Source: Rhodobiaceae bacterium | GTDB lineage: Bacteria; Pseudomonadota; Alphaproteobacteria; Parvibaculales; Parvibaculaceae | Assembly: GCA_003330885.1 (NCBI GenBank) | Contig: CP030277.1 | Coordinates: 3,336,001 to 3,400,000 of the forward strand | DNA: 64,000 nucleotides | Direction of reading: 5' to 3' | Part shown: in pieces, positions 7,764 to 64,000 of the stretch | Position numbering within the stretch: the stretch's first letter is position 1 | Layout: every line of letters begins with the position of its first letter | The notes under the pieces: generated by a model | Databases searched by the model: none | What the model saw: the letters and a program-made list of their open reading frames with translations, nothing else | Told to the model about the DNA's origin: nothing | Made by a program: the position numbers and the translations under genes

Positions 7764-10526
7764 ATGGGCAAAGCTCTACGGAGAACAATGTTCTCTGCAA
7801 GTGCCGCGGTTATGACCGCGGCGCTGGCTGTGCAGCCAGCAACAGCGCTGGAGTATAATTTCGGCGGCGTACAGGTATTCTTGGACACAACAGTTTCGGC
7901 TGGTGTGTCTGTCCGTGTTGCAGACCGCAACGCGTTGTTCCTGCCAGAGTCAAACGGTGGTGCCAGTGAAAGCACCGCTGATGTTTTGACCATTCCAGGT
8001 CTTCCCACGCTGGGCGGTCTTGCTGGTCAAGTGGTGACTTTGGATACCAACACTGCCGGGGACAATTTCGACGGCTCCATCAATACTGATGATGGACGGT
8101 TGAACTTTGACAAGGGCGATCTGACGTCTGGTGTTGTCAAAATGACAAACGACATTCAGGCAAATTATGAGAACTACAAGTTCTTTGCCCGTGTCAGCTC
8201 TTTTTATGATGCCGTACTAGACAATAGCAGTTCATTTGAACGGTCAGCTATTGGTGATGGCGCCAAAACGGACACCGCGCGTGACATTGATCTGCTCGAC
8301 TTCTATGTGTCGGGTGACTTCAATGTTGGTGATCTTCCACTGAACGTCCGCTTGGGTAAGCAGGTTATCAGTTGGGGTGAAGGCACGTTCTTCCTGAACG
8401 GCATTAACGCAATTAACCCGATTGACGTCAGCGCCTTCCGGCGTCCAGGCGTGGAGATCAAAGAGGGTCTACTGCCTGTATGGGCTGTTTATGGGTCTCT
8501 CGGCCTCCCTTATGATCTTTCTTTGGAAGCGTTTTATCAGCTTGAATGGGAAGAGTTCCAACTTGACCGTCCAGGCACTCCGTTCTCTGGCTCAGATGTT
8601 CTGTTCCAGAGCAGTCAACTCGGTGGTAACCAGAACGCAACTTCCTTTATTACCGGTGGGAACCCTACAACAGGGTCTTTCCGTGATTGCGGCGGGCTTG
8701 CTGGCAACCCAATCGCAGCGGCCATTGATGCGGCTCTCGTTGCGGCACCAGGTACGTTTTTTGACAATGAAACGTGTAGTGGCACAAACCCATTCGCAAA
8801 CTTCACGACAAACCTGCCAATCGGGCAAGCTGAAGCAAATCTGCTCGATCCCAACATCGTCAATCACACAGGTGTGATTCGTCGATTGCAGGACCGCGAA
8901 GCGAGCGACTCAGGCCAGTATGGTGTTGCCATGCGCTGGTATTCAGAAGATCTGAATTCGACTGAGTTCGGCTTCTACTTCATGAACTACCATTCGCGTC
9001 TGCCAATTGCGTCTCAGCGTGTTCGTGATGGAGCGGCTGCCGGCGGCTCGGTGCTCAATTCATTCCTTGCTGCTGGACAAAATGGTGATGTTGCAGGTCG
9101 CGGTATCTCATTTGGTGGGTGTAACTTTGTAGCCGCCAATGCTAATCCGCTAACGGCTGCTAACCAGGGTGTTCTCCTGACTGCTGACCAGACATTTGGT
9201 ATTCCGTTGGCCCTTGCGGCGAACACTACCAAACTTGGTGTGTTGGCAAACCCAGCTAACACGAGTGACCCTGCTGGGCTGATTGCAGCTGTTGCTCCAA
9301 CAGCTACGGCCTTCTTTGGAGGGCTCGGAGTAAGCGCAGCTACTAATCCGCTTTCTGCAGGGTTGGCCGCAGCAAATGCATTCACTGCGGTGGATCTTAC
9401 TATTAGTCCGTACGCGGGGGGGGTGGCTGGAGCCGATATTGGTCCTATGCTTGCTGCACTTCAGACGCTTGCCGGTGGTGGTACGCCCGCTCAGGCTGGT
9501 GCAGCAGCAACAGCTGCCGTCGGATCGCTTGTTGTTGCTCCAGGCTCAGGCCTTGAGGCATCAATCACGAACTGTGGTCTGGTGGGTGCTCAAAGCGCGA
9601 CAATCCCAGCACCTGGAACGCCTCTTGGTACAGCTAATGTGCTTGTTGATGGTGCTCAGGTTATTGGTACTCGTGCAGCTAGCGGGATCCCGCCAATTGG
9701 TCTCTTCCTGGAATATCCAGAAGACATCAAGCTCTATGGTGTTTCCTTCAACACAACCATCGGTGACTGGGGTGTGCAGGGCGAAGTTGCCTTCCGCCAG
9801 AACCAGCCACTGCAGCTTGATACTGACCAGCTGACGATTGCGTCTCTTCTGAACACCTGCTTCTTCGATATTACGTTCGGGGCGAACACTGGGGCCATCT
9901 TCGACGGTGGTAACACGTTCAACTCAGCTGGCACGTCGTGTGGCAATGGGTTTGGAACCGGCGGTACAGAGCTAAATGGCTTTGTTCGTGAGGAAGTTCT
10001 CACAGCATCGCTCGGTACCACGGCTACTTACACCAGCTCCAACCCAGCTGTTGGAGCTCTTGGCGCGGATTTGGGTATCCTCATCACTGAGGTTGGCGTC
10101 ATGCATGTACCGGATGTTCCCGGTGAGGATGCACCTTCTTCAGTGGCCCGTTTGGGAAATGTTTGTACCGCTGGTACAGACCTGCCTCTCGCTGGGTTCC
10201 TGGGACTAGACCAACGTAGTGGATGTCGGGCAACCGAGTTCTCCTACGGCTATCTGCTCCTTGGCCAGCTGCAGTACAACAACGCATTTGGTACGCCTAT
10301 CACGCTGAACCCAACAATGGTTTGGCAGCATGATGTGAAAGGTAACTCGCCAGCTCCGTTGTCGAACTATCGTGAAGGTCGCAAGCGCGTAAGCCTTGCA
10401 CTGAACGGCAGCTATCAGAATACGTGGCGTGGTGGTATTTCTTACACGAACTTCTTCGGCAATGAGAAATACTCCAAAGACGGCGACCGGGACTTCGTTT
10501 CGGTTAACCTGAGCTACTCATTCTAA
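7764..10526 (+). CDS. DUF1302 family outer-membrane protein, paralogue 1
   Basis: 920 residues. The N-terminal signal peptide (MGKALRRTMFSASAAVMTAA, cleavage near ATA-LEYN) and the C-terminal aromatic end SVNLSYSF indicate an exported outer-membrane beta-barrel. The first 300 residues carry the DUF1302 pattern (FDQ/FDKGDLTS, DIDLLDFYVSGDF, LNVRLGKQVISWGEGTFF, RRPGVEIKEGLLP). DUF1302 proteins often accompany DUF1329 proteins in hydrophobic-substrate gene clusters, but no DUF1329 gene is present here. An Ala/Gly-rich insert of about 150 residues (roughly 9119-9575), bounded by cysteines, is much longer than in the neighbour at 11148. The start ATG follows GGGGGGG. Function is unknown; transport or envelope use of lipophilic compounds is an inference. 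Confidence 0.85.
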   Translation: MGKALRRTMFSASAAVMTAALAVQPATALEYNFGGVQVFLDTTVSAGVSVRVADRNALFLPESNGGASESTADVLTIPGLPTLGGLAGQVVTLDTNTAGDNFDGSINTDDGRLNFDKGDLTSGVVKMTNDIQANYENYKFFARVSSFYDAVLDNSSSFERSAIGDGAKTDTARDIDLLDFYVSGDFNVGDLPLNVRLGKQVISWGEGTFFLNGINAINPIDVSAFRRPGVEIKEGLLPVWAVYGSLGLPYDLSLEAFYQLEWEEFQLDRPGTPFSGSDVLFQSSQLGGNQNATSFITGGNPTTGSFRDCGGLAGNPIAAAIDAALVAAPGTFFDNETCSGTNPFANFTTNLPIGQAEANLLDPNIVNHTGVIRRLQDREASDSGQYGVAMRWYSEDLNSTEFGFYFMNYHSRLPIASQRVRDGAAAGGSVLNSFLAAGQNGDVAGRGISFGGCNFVAANANPLTAANQGVLLTADQTFGIPLALAANTTKLGVLANPANTSDPAGLIAAVAPTATAFFGGLGVSAATNPLSAGLAAANAFTAVDLTISPYAGGVAGADIGPMLAALQTLAGGGTPAQAGAAATAAVGSLVVAPGSGLEASITNCGLVGAQSATIPAPGTPLGTANVLVDGAQVIGTRAASGIPPIGLFLEYPEDIKLYGVSFNTTIGDWGVQGEVAFRQNQPLQLDTDQLTIASLLNTCFFDITFGANTGAIFDGGNTFNSAGTSCGNGFGTGGTELNGFVREEVLTASLGTTATYTSSNPAVGALGADLGILITEVGVMHVPDVPGEDAPSSVARLGNVCTAGTDLPLAGFLGLDQRSGCRATEFSYGYLLLGQLQYNNAFGTPITLNPTMVWQHDVKGNSPAPLSNYREGRKRVSLALNGSYQNTWRGGISYTNFFGNEKYSKDGDRDFVSVNLSYSF

Positions 10527-57469: not shown

Positions 57470-57545
<76 letters not shown>

Positions 57546-57657: not shown

Positions 57658-59052
57658 CTAGAATTGGCGAACGCTCCTATCCATTAGCTCGCCTTTGCGC
57701 CCATAGACAGAAATTTCCATCCCTTGTGGCGCAACTTCAACACGGGTGAAGTTGTCGTCGCCCACGACTTTGCTGGGATTGGCAAGGGAAAAGACGCCCG
57801 CTTGGCCCGCGTCAATTGTGCCCTTAGTTCGAAAATGTCGTGCTGACGGATGGGGATAGGGCCAGAAGAAGGAAGAAGATACAACCGAGTGAACCTTCAG
57901 TCCGGTTGGTGACACCAGTTCCAATGAAAGGGACGCATGAATATCTCCTGAGAAAAAGACAACACGCTCAATTTGGTGTGTCTCAATATGTTCAAGAAGT
58001 TCAACCCGCTGTGCATGGTACCCTGACCATTTGTCTTTTGATTCCGATTGCGCAGAGTCAGGGGCAAATGGAACAGATGTAACCACGATCTTCACCCGAC
58101 CTGATGCGTCTTTTAGCCAGCGCTTCAGAGCGGACATTTGTTCCTGGCTAATCATCTCGGAAGTGCCATCCACCAAATGGGCACGTTCTGTTCTGGAGTC
58201 GGTGACAAAGATATCGCAGCACCCATCGCTGTATTTATACCAAAAATGGTTGGGCGTCCCCGTAAGGCGTCGCTTCTTTATGGGGATGTTCGGGCTGTGT
58301 GAAAGTTGGTAGCTCTGATAGGCGTGAATTGCATTTGGATAAAGTGTCTTCCAATCCTTATCACAAGCTTTCGTCGGCCAATTGTCTTCTATCTCATGAT
58401 CATCAAGGGTCATGTAGGTTGGCGTCCGGCTCATGAGGTCGCGGATGTATCGTTGACCAAAAGCGCTTCGATACCTCTTGTAGAATTTATCCACTGACCG
58501 ATCTTGCCCGACGAACTTTAGATCATCCGCATAGATTTGATCTCCCATCATTAGGAGCTGGTGGACTGGGCTACCGCTATCAATCTGTTCCAGGATTGAT
58601 CTGAATGTCTTGTCACCGCGATCATCAAAAAAATCTCCAAGGAATGTTTTTAGAAGATAGCGACAGGAGCCAATGACCAGTGAGCGAGGTTCTGTATCAT
58701 CATCACTTGCTGTTTGAAATGCTCCAATGTCGATGTTCCCCCAATCAGAACCTGAAAATCCGGCATCGGATATCTCTGCATCGGAGAAAAAGTAGCCCAT
58801 CTGGTATTCGTAGTGAGTGGATGGCTCAAGTTTCTCGACGATTGCGATCCCCGTCATATCGAAATTGGGGTTCATTTTGAAGAGAACCGGTTTGTGCCAG
58901 TCGCCGCTACCCGCTTTTGCATAACGCAGCGCGCCAAAGCACCTCCTTGGAAGTCCGTCAATAACGTCTCCTTGTCCTCGACCCCATATCCGAACGCGTG
59001 TCGGTGTGGTTTCGCCGATTATTGGGCCAACGGTTACACCGTTCAGTTTCAT
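57658..59052 (-). CDS. PhoD-like metallophosphoesterase
   Basis: 464 residues from the ATG at 59052 (GGAGG eight bases upstream). The metal-binding core of the alkaline phosphatase D / PhoD-like family is clear: SLVIGSCRYL, LLMMGDQIYADDLKF, PTYMTLDDHEIEDNW, VVFFSGDIHASLSLE. It has no twin-arginine or other signal peptide, unlike the exported PhoD enzymes, so it should act in the cytoplasm. The N-terminal 100 residues form a beta-rich domain that begins with GVTVGPIIGETTPTRVRIWGR. The substrate is unknown; phosphodiesters or phosphomonoesters are likely. It lies between tRNA-Ala and a giant unfamiliar gene on the opposite strand. Confidence 0.88.
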   Translation of the reverse strand: MKLNGVTVGPIIGETTPTRVRIWGRGQGDVIDGLPRRCFGALRYAKAGSGDWHKPVLFKMNPNFDMTGIAIVEKLEPSTHYEYQMGYFFSDAEISDAGFSGSDWGNIDIGAFQTASDDDTEPRSLVIGSCRYLLKTFLGDFFDDRGDKTFRSILEQIDSGSPVHQLLMMGDQIYADDLKFVGQDRSVDKFYKRYRSAFGQRYIRDLMSRTPTYMTLDDHEIEDNWPTKACDKDWKTLYPNAIHAYQSYQLSHSPNIPIKKRRLTGTPNHFWYKYSDGCCDIFVTDSRTERAHLVDGTSEMISQEQMSALKRWLKDASGRVKIVVTSVPFAPDSAQSESKDKWSGYHAQRVELLEHIETHQIERVVFFSGDIHASLSLELVSPTGLKVHSVVSSSFFWPYPHPSARHFRTKGTIDAGQAGVFSLANPSKVVGDDNFTRVEVAPQGMEISVYGRKGELMDRSVRQF

Positions 59053-59515
59053 CACTATGTCCTCCGATGTGTTGGCGCTTTTTCAAGGGAGAGTTGAAGC
59101 TGCGCACTCTATGAGCGATTGCTGATTTGGATCCCCGTAGAAACCTTCCTATCCCGGACAAAAAAAGATGAGCTCTCTTGTGAAGTCGAAACAGATCGTC
59201 GGGTCAACCGCAGGTTGATTGCGCGACGAGCAGAAAGCCCAAATAGGACACCTATGTTGTCAGGTCACCAGGTCCGACACTGTGCTCGCAAAAACGTTTC
59301 GCAAACTTGCCATCTTTAGGGGGCGGCAGGCCACCAGCATGCGAATAAGCGAAAACCTGCGGAGGCATGTCACCCTTCAACAATCTTTATACAGATGTTC
59401 TGTCTTCAGAATACATCACCGAATTCAAACGAGAGCACATAGAAGTTGACTCAAAAAAACGACGGTATCACGATAGAGGAAAGAAAAGATTTTGCCAAGG
59501 GGAGTGGTGAATTCA
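59053..59515. promoter_or_regulatory. Divergent gap upstream of the giant gene
   Basis: 463 bases without a credible gene. It must hold the promoters for the PhoD-like gene (minus) and the giant gene (plus). Possible boxes are weak: TTGACT at about 59447 with no good -10 at the right distance. I see no integrase, insertion sequence or repeat here. Confidence 0.35.
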
Positions 59516-62500
59516 ATGGGGAACGCGCCGAGCACTTCTCGGGTTGTCGGGATCATTTTGATGGTCGCGGGGATCGTTGCCATTCCGCTCGCCGCGTATT
59601 ACCTGTTTTATGTCACTGGCCAGCAGGATTTCCAAACACGCAGGAGCCTGCGTGCGGTGCATGAAATAACTGTTCAGCTTAATGATCGTTTCGCTGCGCT
59701 TCATCAGATTATGCGCTTTTTTCCGGTTACGCTCGACGTTCGACTTGAATCACCCGGTGGCGCGATGCTCCCACGGGCGAAACCTTTGCAATCTCTCGAT
59801 AGAACCCAGGAGGAAACTTTATCAACAGAACGCCTCGTTGAGCCTGGCGCTTGCTCCCTAATTGGCCGGGTTGCGAAATGGGGTTCGTCGTTGAGCCGGA
59901 TGCAGAGGAAATTGAGAGACCTTACTACTCTGTGGGAATGGCAGTGCCATTTCGTTCGCGGGCATTTGAGCGAAAGTGGGCGAGTTGAGGAGAATGGGCA
60001 GAGTAAACTATATCGACTTTTGGATAGCCTAACTGAATTCATTCCATCACTGAGTGCCCCTCTCTATCAAGCAATTGTCGACACAGGCGCACCTGATGTC
60101 TCCTGCCGATCATTGAATGCTGCGCGGACATGGGCGGCGGCAGATGGCTTTGCAAACGAAGAGGGTAAATCTGACGTGCTCGAAGAGGTAGTGAGTCACT
60201 TTGTGCGGCCAGAAACCAAACCGTGCCCAGAGACCGAAACCGATAACCTGCCGGAGGCTCTCAGAAATTTGGAGCTGCTTGTCGAGAAATTGGGGTCTGA
60301 ACTCAAAACGACATCATACAACTCGGACTACGAAGTTTTGGTGAACAGCACTGTCAGCCTGATCTCATTGCATGAAGAAATACTCAAGCGTGCAATAGCT
60401 TTGCAAGAGCTGGGAACCCACACCCAGGCAGAACTAGAAGAGGGAATTTTTCGCCTTGCGTCCGTGAGCGACGCGCACATCTTCTATCTTGAGTTCTTGT
60501 GCGCATCTGAAGGACAGAAAATCATCCAAGCTGAATCTGCGCTGCAGACCCTTCTTGAGGTTTTGAAGGGCAACACCAGGAGGCTGCATGATGCTACGCC
60601 GTGCCTGATTGGAAATGAAGATAATCAGGCAATAGAAAGAGCCGCTAGAATCCGAACTGAAAATTCGAACAGAATTAGGGCTGAAAAAATTGCCATTGTT
60701 GAAGAGCCCAAAAGGCTCGAGATTGAAAAGTTAGCAAGGGCCAGAGTTGAGAATTTGACCAAAGCGAAATCCGCAGAGGTGGTTCCGATCGAAGAAATTG
60801 CCAGGGTTGAAGGGGTGACCAGAAGCGCTGTAGGTGATGGAAAGCGAGAGAGAACCAAATCTGAGGAATTGATCGAACCTAAAACAGACCGCTTCGCAGG
60901 TATCAGCAATCCATTTCGGGTGTTGGTCGCGGATCAATCCAGCCGAGAAAACGCACTAGACTCTAGTTTACGCGTGCTGCCTCAAAATCAGATCATGAAA
61001 CACGTAGATACTTCATCGACTCTTCGTACGACTAGATGGTTCAGGCGATTGGAGACGCACTCAAGCGCGATCGAAACTCTCTCCTGTGACGAAAGTGGCG
61101 TGGGTGAGGAAACCTTCCTCCGGTTTACTTCGGAGGGGGGCATGCCTGTAGTGGACGGTGGTCTGAGATGCTCCGGCGATGATCTGAGTAACTTCAGCGG
61201 GCGACAAAAACGCTGGACAGGTGGCCGTTACATACTAACAGTGCGACTGGGCGATTTGATTGACGTGCCGGCAAGAAGCAGCCAGGACATGCGCTTCGCC
61301 ATAGCGGATTGCAATGGTCGGATTGTCTTTGGAAACCTGGACGGTGGTTCCACCGTTAACAACCTTTCACATTGGTTGGGCTTGTCTCCAAGTACCGCTA
61401 AAACCGGTGAGAAGGATGCTGAGATACGGCCTTTCGCACTCTTCTCGACGGCGACAGTCAACGCATCAATTGAGGATGATGCGCTGGCACACTCGAGGGT
61501 TGAAACAATCTTCCTTGGTGGGCAGCAGTACCAAGCCGCAATCCAGCCCTATCGACTTCCCATCGGTGTAAGCGATCCATCCTGTGAACAAAAGCCGTCG
61601 AATCAACCAACGGCGTCTGCGCGCCCATCTAGCCCAAACGAGTCACCTCAGAACGAGTCACCTCAAAACGAGTCACCTCAGAACCAGGCAACATGGTTTG
61701 TTGTTGGTTTGACGCCTTATGACAAAATCGTCCGTGAGACCCGCAATCCTCCCTTTCTTGTCGTGGCGTGGACTGTTCCCCTGGTTTTTCTCGGGTTGCT
61801 TACTTGGCCCTATCTGACTTTCCGATTTGCCGGATCAGGTCTTAATCTTGGTCGCCTCCACCTGACGGTGACGGCAATCTCGTTGCCAGTTGGCTTTGGG
61901 CTTTTGTCATTGCTCCTCTTTGCTTTCTATCACTATCAGTTAGAGCAGACCAAAGTGGTGGTTGAGGCGAAGGCGATTTCAAAAAGTCTCTCTGCTGCAT
62001 TTTCTCATGAACTCGACGAGACACTGGAGATGATGGTGGGAGATGCGTCTTCTGTTGACGAAAATGATCAGACTGTTTCTGAAGTTTCGTTCGGTCAGCT
62101 TGCGCTGCTTGAAAGCGCTGAAAACCTGCTCTCGGCCTTCGACCGCTGTCGCAATTTATTGCTCATGAACAGGAGTAAAGTCGATGCCACCGGTGAGGGC
62201 GACAGATGGGACTGGAGGTGCCAGTGGGCCGCAGAGTCGGCTGCTGCTGATGAGAGGCAGACCTTTGAACAGTTCACACGAGGGTACCAATCATTTGAGT
62301 TTGCATGGATGATGGACGGAACGCCGGGGTCCCCTGCTGAGGGTAGGCATGTTGGCCCACACCTTTCCTTGAGGGAAACCGCGGTGAGGCGTGTTGCGCT
62401 TGGAAACCGTGGGTATTTTCAGAGAGCCAGAAATCGCGAGGGGTGGCGCCGTGAGGCACTGTCTGCGGCACAAAACAGGGAAGCTGATGGATGCGAGATC

Positions 62501-64000
62501 TCCAACGGCACATTTGCCCTTGAGCGTATTCGTACTCGGGATTTTGGTTGGACACTTTCCTCAATAGCTGTCCCGGTGTTTTCAGAGGCAACACAAGATC
62601 AGAATGAGAATAAGGACTGCCCAAATAGTGCAGGGTCGCCGCGGGCATTCTGGGAGAAGTCCCGTTTTGCCGAGGAGGCGGTGCTCCGAACCCCCATGTC
62701 GGCAGAGCGTGCCCCCTCGTCATTCGTATTGGCAATTGTAAAGCGCATACAAACATTTGCGAGTCCGGTTTTGCCTTATGGGTTTGGTTTCGCAGTTGTA
62801 CGCGACCGCACGGGCGACCAGTTGTTGGACGGGCAGGCGTGGCGTAGGGGGGATGTTCTTTTTCATTCAGATGACAGCCGCTCCCTCATCGAGAATTTTT
62901 TGGGCGAGACCGACAATGATATAAACCTTGAGGCAGCCCTTGAGAACCGGCGCTCTGATACCATTGAAGTGCCTTACCGGGGTCGCCCGCACCTGATCCA
63001 TGTCGACCCGCTAGCCGGTCTTCCTTGGAGCTTGATCGTCTTCTACGACAAGTCAATTCTACATCTGTCCCTGACAGAGCCAGCCATAGCCGCCACCATG
63101 AGCTTTATGGTGTTTGCCATTTTCTTGGCGTTGATCGCGGGTGCGGGGGTAAGTCTGGCGGCAGGGTACAAAGCGTGGGCATGGATCTGGCCGCGGCCGA
63201 GAAGCACGTCGACCTATTACACAGCAACCGGTGTATTGGTTCTTGTCGGCCTTTCTCTCGTCCTCATTGCTTGCGTGATGGAACAGCTGCCTTTCCCTTA
63301 TGCCTGGTTTTTACTCGGTGGTGTTCTGTTGGCTGTGCTCGGCGGTCTCATCATCTTCTTCTCACCGGAACAATATCATCTGAAGTCAGATCCAAAAAAA
63401 GCCGATGACATCGTGTATTGGAAAGTGATTATGGGGTCTCGCCTACTTCTGACGGGGTCTGTTGTGATGATCCTGGGAATGGCATTGTTTCCGCTCGCTG
63501 TCGGCGTCGGCGTGGCGTTTTTTGAGCTTACGCTGGCGAACGAGCCTCTCGCTAAAGTTGTGCTCGTCGTTCAGTTGGTGCTCTCTCTCGTAATGCCGAT
63601 GGTTCTACCCAAATGCGTGAGGTTGGCGCTTGGGGTATTTGATCATGGGGGCAAGGGTGCTGCCCTGGATGCCAGTACACAATTTTCCTTCGCCTTTTTT
63701 CTCATGGCGCTGATTTTCCTATTTGGTATTGCGCCAGCATCTGTGATTTGGATAGACGCAGAGCGCCTTGCATCTGATATCCGGCAAAAGCACGAACTGG
63801 TCCACGCGGGGGAGGCAACATACAGACGTGAATCAGAAATCCTGGCGGATCTCAAAAGGCTGCAACCAGAAGCGTTGAGCGGTGTGCGAATTGAAGATCT
63901 TGTCGCCGATGTTCGTTTATGGACACTGAGTTTCCACAATCGCAGGGTGTGCGTTACAGAAAATCTACCCGCCAAACAGGGGAGTGTACGTAGCCGGACT
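59516..64000 (+). CDS. Giant multi-helix membrane protein with Cache-like region, function unknown (partial)
   Basis: The frame is open for 1495 codons from the ATG at 59516 to the window edge; I checked it line by line and found no stop. AAGGGGAG is 11 bases upstream. A GTG at 59507 is an alternative start. Helices by inspection: about 10-33, 747-770, 783-806, 1192-1217, 1237-1258, 1263-1282, 1309-1335, 1347-1364 and 1392-1412. Two large extracytoplasmic domains (34-746 and 807-1190) lie between them. The second has Cache-like features: SLRETAVRRVALGNRGYFQR at about 954, GDVLFHSDDSRSLIENFL, and GLPWSLIVFYDKS near 1168, ending at the helix. The first has a charged stretch at 373-440 and a tandem NESPQ repeat at 708-722. 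I do not recognise the family; a sensor or signalling receptor is an inference. The C-terminus is not visible. Confidence 0.85.
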   Translation, partial: MGNAPSTSRVVGIILMVAGIVAIPLAAYYLFYVTGQQDFQTRRSLRAVHEITVQLNDRFAALHQIMRFFPVTLDVRLESPGGAMLPRAKPLQSLDRTQEETLSTERLVEPGACSLIGRVAKWGSSLSRMQRKLRDLTTLWEWQCHFVRGHLSESGRVEENGQSKLYRLLDSLTEFIPSLSAPLYQAIVDTGAPDVSCRSLNAARTWAAADGFANEEGKSDVLEEVVSHFVRPETKPCPETETDNLPEALRNLELLVEKLGSELKTTSYNSDYEVLVNSTVSLISLHEEILKRAIALQELGTHTQAELEEGIFRLASVSDAHIFYLEFLCASEGQKIIQAESALQTLLEVLKGNTRRLHDATPCLIGNEDNQAIERAARIRTENSNRIRAEKIAIVEEPKRLEIEKLARARVENLTKAKSAEVVPIEEIARVEGVTRSAVGDGKRERTKSEELIEPKTDRFAGISNPFRVLVADQSSRENALDSSLRVLPQNQIMKHVDTSSTLRTTRWFRRLETHSSAIETLSCDESGVGEETFLRFTSEGGMPVVDGGLRCSGDDLSNFSGRQKRWTGGRYILTVRLGDLIDVPARSSQDMRFAIADCNGRIVFGNLDGGSTVNNLSHWLGLSPSTAKTGEKDAEIRPFALFSTATVNASIEDDALAHSRVETIFLGGQQYQAAIQPYRLPIGVSDPSCEQKPSNQPTASARPSSPNESPQNESPQNESPQNQATWFVVGLTPYDKIVRETRNPPFLVVAWTVPLVFLGLLTWPYLTFRFAGSGLNLGRLHLTVTAISLPVGFGLLSLLLFAFYHYQLEQTKVVVEAKAISKSLSAAFSHELDETLEMMVGDASSVDENDQTVSEVSFGQLALLESAENLLSAFDRCRNLLLMNRSKVDATGEGDRWDWRCQWAAESAAADERQTFEQFTRGYQSFEFAWMMDGTPGSPAEGRHVGPHLSLRETAVRRVALGNRGYFQRARNREGWRREALSAAQNREADGCEISNGTFALERIRTRDFGWTLSSIAVPVFSEATQDQNENKDCPNSAGSPRAFWEKSRFAEEAVLRTPMSAERAPSSFVLAIVKRIQTFASPVLPYGFGFAVVRDRTGDQLLDGQAWRRGDVLFHSDDSRSLIENFLGETDNDINLEAALENRRSDTIEVPYRGRPHLIHVDPLAGLPWSLIVFYDKSILHLSLTEPAIAATMSFMVFAIFLALIAGAGVSLAAGYKAWAWIWPRPRSTSTYYTATGVLVLVGLSLVLIACVMEQLPFPYAWFLLGGVLLAVLGGLIIFFSPEQYHLKSDPKKADDIVYWKVIMGSRLLLTGSVVMILGMALFPLAVGVGVAFFELTLANEPLAKVVLVVQLVLSLVMPMVLPKCVRLALGVFDHGGKGAALDASTQFSFAFFLMALIFLFGIAPASVIWIDAERLASDIRQKHELVHAGEATYRRESEILADLKRLQPEALSGVRIEDLVADVRLWTLSFHNRRVCVTENLPAKQGSVRSRT
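61637..61681 (+). repeat. Tandem 15-base repeat coding NESPQ x3
   Basis: Three head-to-tail copies of AACGAGTCACCTCAG; the middle copy differs by one base (A for G at its end). It lies in frame in the giant protein (residues 708-722), between the first extracytoplasmic domain and the second helix, and looks like a linker prone to slippage. Confidence 0.9.

Follow-up and report, generated by a model that had tools for sequence, protein, structure and literature searches.

A giant gene for a probable receptor of an undescribed family

We identified, at the edge of the window (the whole stretch of 64,000 nucleotides analyzed here), a giant gene that encodes a membrane protein. This protein belongs to a family of homologous proteins, carries a double Cache (dCache) sensor domain, and lacks a Walker A motif in its ATPase-like cytosolic part. 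On balance, we lean towards reading the protein as a transmembrane receptor made in one piece, with an ATPase-like output that would serve as a conformational or interaction hub and not as an enzyme. The homologue family matches no known family and appears to be undescribed, which bears out the earlier note on this DNA in its view of the protein as large, membrane-bound, receptor-like and new.

Searches with the full 2,038 residues placed the protein in no characterized family, in keeping with that description: there was no credible match in Pfam, NCBIfam, PADLOC or PHROG, no PDB match by sequence, and no kinase, GGDEF, chemoreceptor, cyclase or other classical output in Pfam and NCBIfam. A description of the family was likewise not found in the literature searched, which lay mostly outside subscription journals. 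The single parts of the protein are known; their combination appears to be undescribed.

The open frame extends from an ATG at 59516 to the window edge at 64000, comprising 1,495 codons without a stop, as the earlier note had stated. The host genome is complete (one contig of 3,862,255 bases, in which the window corresponds to C1:3336001-3400000), and in it the gene runs on for 535 further codons to a stop at C1:3401608. Instead of a stop codon just past the edge, this continuation encodes a candidate output. The protein has 2,030 residues if translated from ATG 59516, with a ribosome-site-like stretch (AAGGGGAG) upstream at 59497-59504, and 2,038 residues if translated from TTG 59492, located 24 bases upstream; residue numbers are counted from TTG 59492. 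The GC content of the gene (0.523) is slightly below that of the window (0.554). A chance frame was excluded: conservation at the protein level covers residues 17-2038 in distant genomes, and the frame is therefore a true coding sequence. The gene and its predicted parts are:

59516 to 64000, forward strand: coding sequence within the window, residues 9-1503 of 2038, supported by whole-length homologues
59543 to 59599, forward strand: TM1, residues 18-36, with a hydropathy peak of 2.52 and a long model helix at 15-76
59600 to 61750, forward strand: outer domain 1, residues 37-753 (~717), from alignment occupancy and predicted helix-then-sheet order
59750 to 61222, forward strand: insert in outer domain 1, residues 87-577, helical, charged, poorly conserved and mostly of low model confidence
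61751 to 61924, forward strand: TM2-TM3 hairpin, residues 754-811 (helices 754-772 and 793-811), kept in the family
61925 to 63076, forward strand: outer domain 2, residues 812-1195, dCache by Pfam, PDB profile and Foldseek
63083 to 63748, forward strand: TM4-TM9, residues 1198-1419, four of the six missing in minimal members
63749 to 64000, forward strand: start of outer domain 3, residues 1420-1503 of 1420-1625, the remainder lying beyond the edge
beyond the window edge: TM10, residues 1626-1644, predicted
beyond the window edge: AAA+/STAND-like domain without Walker A, residues about 1674-1885, predicted, cytosolic
beyond the window edge: winged helix, residues about 1888-1975, predicted
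beyond the window edge: TM11-TM12 (closing pair), residues 1984-2026, predicted
locus L002, 3492-9608: whole giant gene, ending at C1:3401608

A rare and patchy family

The first searches suggested an orphan confined to this species: a first pattern scan for relatives found none, and there was no relative in 60 related genomes, 36 of them from the same genus and family. Searches at the level of the class and the phylum overturned this view. In the class-wide sample, one other genome (G159) carries the gene in pieces, to which we give little weight, as its assembly has ~410 contigs and the frame is broken. Complete relatives then came to light with a profile of the last 150 residues, in the family comprising the Alteromonadaceae and close kin (f190). 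When one of these was used to search this family, the gene turned up in 28 of its 148 genomes and 14 of its 52 genera, including Glaciecola, Rheinheimera, Aliiglaciecola and Aestuariibacter. Further hosts are Paraglaciecola, Colwellia, Pseudoteredinibacter, Mangrovimicrobium, Halioglobus, Aliikangiella and Marinobacter nauticus, and a fragment of the family is present in Nitrosomonas. Besides the window protein, we recovered 36 full-length members and at least four that are partial or split, mainly from marine Gammaproteobacteria (Alteromonadaceae, Cellvibrionaceae, Halieaceae, Marinobacter and Aliikangiella). The working set consisted of 37 full-length proteins of 1,287-2,038 residues, with their parts in the same order. 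The phylum-wide sample contained the gene in only 3 of 398 genomes; the family is therefore rare and patchy.

Full-length identity between the window protein and the other members is 14-20%, rising to as much as 35% in outer domain 2. The family tree shows two well-separated groups, and the window protein joins the more scattered one with a branch length of 3.5 and an unusual composition, so its placing is unreliable. For this reason, we make no claim as to which relative it came from.

Membrane topology

Hydropathy and loop charges predict twelve membrane helices with both ends inside, the loop charges agreeing with this twelve-helix topology. The order of parts given in the earlier note (an N-terminal helix, an outer domain, two helices, a second outer domain, six helices and a further domain) proved correct. 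The six-helix core is indeed predicted in the window protein (1198-1419), but it is not a constant feature of the family.

The twelve predicted helices of the window protein would also suit a transporter or channel, in which the core helices move a substrate and the sensor domains regulate this movement. However, the number of helices varies among members, falling to about eight in L082 and L086; four of the six post-sensor helices are dispensed with in the minimal relatives; and in the family alignment the membrane helices are poorly conserved relative to the sensor and the winged helix. As no transporter family gave a match either, we regard this explanation as improbable.

Outer domain 2 is a double Cache sensor

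The earlier note had seen Cache-like features in the second outer domain, and three lines of evidence confirm that it is a dCache sensor. First, Pfam dCache_1 (PF02743) matches 7 of 32 members, with a best E-value of 1.8e-5, and 3 of 19 in a smaller set; the window protein itself has no direct dCache_1 match in Pfam and was assigned through the alignment and the structural model. Second, a PDB profile search matched 9hvj, a "Cache domain protein" (E = 4.4e-4). Finally, Foldseek matched the model to McpH (with uric acid), PscC, Mlp24 and Mlp37, with E-values down to 3.9e-5 and a probability of 1.0. The model comprises a helix at 788-857, strands in two groups and a helix entering TM4; a long N-terminal helix thus carries two PAS-like subdomains, with a membrane helix on either side of the whole.

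Residues R973, Y975, R1012, G1120, H1125 and Y1162 are invariant in this domain. Amino-acid binding by dCache_1AA domains involves a Y, an R-x-W-Y motif and a D. The family has R-x-Y-F at the nearest place, in what is a weak test of the motif, and the acidic position is occupied by N in most members and by T in the window protein. Because the amino-acid receptor motif is absent, we predict no ligand.

Outer domains 1 and 3

Outer domain 1 begins with a long N-terminal helix and ends with a sheet core at ~578-745, the two being separated by an insert of ~490 residues. Compact relatives have an outer domain 1 of only about 220-320 residues. The earlier note was right about a first outer domain of ~700 residues with a charged stretch, which is helical, and an NESPQ linker, which consists of repeats at about 716-731; most of the domain, however, is an insert absent from compact relatives. 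Three further members, L019 (1,870 aa), L052 (1,906 aa) and L080 (1,818 aa), also have long helix-rich inserts in outer domain 1; the insert of L019 is at least partly coiled-coil-like, and the insert varies independently of the rest of the protein.

In the model, the core of outer domain 1 would fit a single Cache domain. Pfam gave no match to this domain in 23 members, and its alignment to the dCache domain with hhalign was weak (probability 4.6%). The third outer segment (1420-1625) was poorly modeled.

A predicted cytosolic ATPase-like domain without an ATP-binding loop

The earlier note had expected an output domain beyond the window edge. A cytosolic candidate is present there, although it is no recognizable enzyme: it combines a predicted AAA+/STAND-like fold that lacks Walker A with a winged helix. 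Residues 1674-1984 were mostly modeled at a pLDDT of about 80-95, and nearly all of the best 50 Foldseek matches are AAA+ or STAND P-loop ATPases, several of them with winged helices. The top match was PABY2304 (2qen; E = 0.014, probability 0.97), a bacterial initiator (5he8) matched with a target TM-score of 0.60 and a probability of 0.99, and other matches included ORC/Cdc6, Vps4, DnaA, RdrA and Avs4. The domain gave nothing in Pfam, NCBIfam or PDB profile searches, and a profile comparison with six ATPase_2 proteins was negative, leading us to reject a sequence-level kinship with STAND ATPase_2. The model makes an AAA+/STAND-like fold likely; we stop short of calling it proven because no Foldseek match fell under E = 0.001 and profiles find no link.

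A regular-expression search for the Walker A motif GxxxxGK[ST] found none in the cytosolic part of any full-length member; the single match, at residues 411-418 of L054, lies far from the cytosolic domain. An active ATPase with an unusual nucleotide site would agree with the ATPase-like fold that Foldseek suggested for the model, and with K1690, which the window protein keeps where the helix following strand 1 begins. Against such activity, no complete member has the glycine-rich loop, and conservation of the Walker B acid is lacking, with VIKN in L056 and VTGL in the window protein, which makes a working nucleotide site very unlikely.

Conservation in the cytosolic part peaks in the winged helix (Y1903, R1904, W1907, E1914, N1928, N1931, L1938, A1964 and E1965) and directly ahead of it (W1821, F1828 and E1859), and most of the invariant cytosolic residues belong to the winged helix itself. 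Such a conserved, predicted cytosolic winged helix could belong to a transmembrane transcription regulator similar to ToxR or CadC, which would bind DNA from the membrane under the control of the Cache domains; membrane-bound regulators with outer sensors are common (PMC10269533), and transcription factors are among the proteins on which Upadhyay et al. record Cache domains (PMC4822843). Across the family, however, the winged helix has a net charge of -5 to +6 and a pI of 5.1 to 10.1, and is thus not consistently basic. It is also placed between the ATPase-like domain and two membrane helices and not at a free end, and a winged helix so placed commonly belongs to the switch in AAA+/STAND proteins. 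We therefore consider a DNA-binding regulator unlikely. The pattern of conservation and charge is easier to reconcile with a surface that binds or switches than with catalysis or DNA binding.

The cytosolic module as a separate gene in Halioglobus

In Halioglobus japonicus BC5_1, the family protein is encoded by two adjacent genes (L090:5219-9241 and 9266-10465). The first encodes a receptor half of 1,340 residues that ends just past the last helix before the cytosol and aligns lengthwise with the fused Mangrovimicrobium protein (31% identity, E = 6e-165), and the second a cytosolic half of 399 residues that retains the closing helix pair. Four stop codons lie between the halves, and a ribosome-site-like AGGAG precedes a possible second start. 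An assembly error or gene decay could produce such a split; a simple assembly error is less likely because there are four stops and they fall at the domain border. The position of the split, at the border between membrane and cytosol, suggests from this one genome that the cytosolic module can exist as a separate subunit. It also provides a ready handle, as the cytosolic subunit could be expressed alone for finding partners.

Genomic surroundings

The region to the left of the gene contains the following features:

57470 to 57545: tRNA-Ala(GGC), adjoining a conserved block
57658 to 59055, reverse strand: PhoD-like phosphatase (PF09423, E = 1e-26), divergent from the giant gene

The earlier note had proposed a functional link to the PhoD-like phosphatase and a check of the neighborhood for ATPase, nuclease or kinase genes. 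Across the family, no neighbor recurs outside close clades, and PhoD is absent from the recurring neighbors; therefore the giant protein seems to have no fixed genetic partner, and the PhoD link is not supported. An operon was rejected on the same finding. The phosphatase gene has the lowest GC content of the genes compared (0.492).

On its other side, beyond the window edge, the giant gene is followed by a convergent gene (L002:9617-13540), whose end lies 8 bases away and which encodes a 1,307-residue autotransporter with HYDIN/ASH-like Ig repeats and an autotransporter beta-domain. From reading of the sequences, we take L002:15010-19270 and L003:1302-6717 to hold ABC transporter genes followed by urea carboxylase-like and allophanate hydrolase-like genes. 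In a subgroup of Alteromonadaceae (L060, L061, L065, L068, L069, L071 and L072), the family gene converges on a recD-like gene, behind which lies a recB-like one, and in most of them a cysteine desulfurase-like gene lies on the other side; the names come from our reading of the sequences. These neighbors recur in this one subgroup only. This recB/recD neighborhood is probably plain synteny.

The conserved block beside tRNA-Ala(GGC) encodes a FYDLN-type protein and aroA-, cmk- and rpsA-like genes. The giant gene lies just past this block and the tRNA, in a region that differs between sister species, one of which has recombinase- and transposase-like genes right of the tRNA. The region looks like an insertion hotspot. 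A mobile origin of the giant gene is only suggested, because no repeat of the tRNA 3'-end marking a mobile island was found within L002 or L003. The gene as plasmid or phage cargo was rejected, with no match in plasmids, phages or viral contigs.

This variable region beside tRNA-Ala, the patchy distribution and the fold likeness to Avs4 and RdrA found with Foldseek would be compatible with anti-phage defence, in which a STAND-like core acts with C-terminal membrane-perturbing helices. PADLOC, however, returned nothing convincing, with isolated weak matches in single relatives only, and no defence genes were recognized around the giant gene. In STAND defence proteins the ATPase is active and sensing takes place within the cell; in the giant protein, by contrast, the loop has been lost and the sensors point outward. 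A role in defence is accordingly the least probable of the explanations weighed here.

Proposed mechanism and comparison with known systems

We return to the receptor with a hub-like output as our preferred reading. Two extracytoplasmic sensor modules, one of them the double Cache domain, would face the periplasm. A ligand there would shift the long signaling helices that enter the membrane (TM1 and TM3), and the change would be relayed through the following helices to the cytosolic module. This module, predicted to have an AAA+/STAND P-loop ATPase fold followed by a winged helix, with the ATP-binding loop lost family-wide, may be tied back to the membrane by the closing helix pair. Most likely, the pseudo-ATPase would function as a switchable hub for protein interaction or assembly, which would recruit or release a partner in the cytosol whose gene lies elsewhere.

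Among the outer sensors of bacteria, Cache domains are the most common. A survey by Upadhyay et al. shows them feeding known outputs: the partners in its Table 1 are kinases, chemoreceptors, c-di-GMP enzymes, cyclases, phosphatases, ion channels and transcription factors, and neither "AAA" nor "ATPase" occurs in its text (PMC4822843). A Cache sensor joined to an ATPase-like domain without a nucleotide site would be a further type of output and, if true, would show a pseudo-ATPase used as a membrane signaling hub. We tentatively propose, as a claim that may well not hold, that the family represents a new class of transmembrane receptors, in which Cache sensors act on a hub made of a catalytically dead AAA+/STAND-like domain and a winged helix, with no output of the kinase, cyclase or chemotaxis type.

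Among known systems, the dCache_1 receptors (McpH, PscC, Mlp24, Mlp37 and histidine kinase sensors such as soHK1S-Z6) share with outer domain 2 the long helix that follows a membrane helix, the two PAS-like halves and the return to the membrane. Known dCache receptors have kinase, chemotaxis, c-di-GMP, cyclase, phosphatase or HTH outputs (Table 1, PMC4822843); unlike them, the giant protein has a Walker-A-less ATPase-like domain, a second outer module and a polytopic core. ToxR and CadC likewise unite an outer sensor, a membrane anchor and a cytosolic winged helix in one protein, but the giant protein is far larger and polytopic, and its winged helix is internal, not consistently basic and preceded by an ATPase-like domain.

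The STAND and AAA+ proteins with a winged helix (PABY2304, ORC/Cdc6, Avs4 and RdrA) resemble the giant protein in the predicted order of strands and helices and in the winged helix after the core. In contrast to these ATPases, it has no Walker A and no conserved Walker B, lies between membrane helices, and shows no detected sequence-profile relation to them. A survey of BREX defence (PMC12839542) reportedly uses the term inactive STAND (iSTAND) domains. Compared by description only, these resemble the cytosolic module in being STAND-like domains without catalytic residues; the setting of iSTAND domains is defence, whereas that of the giant protein is a receptor.
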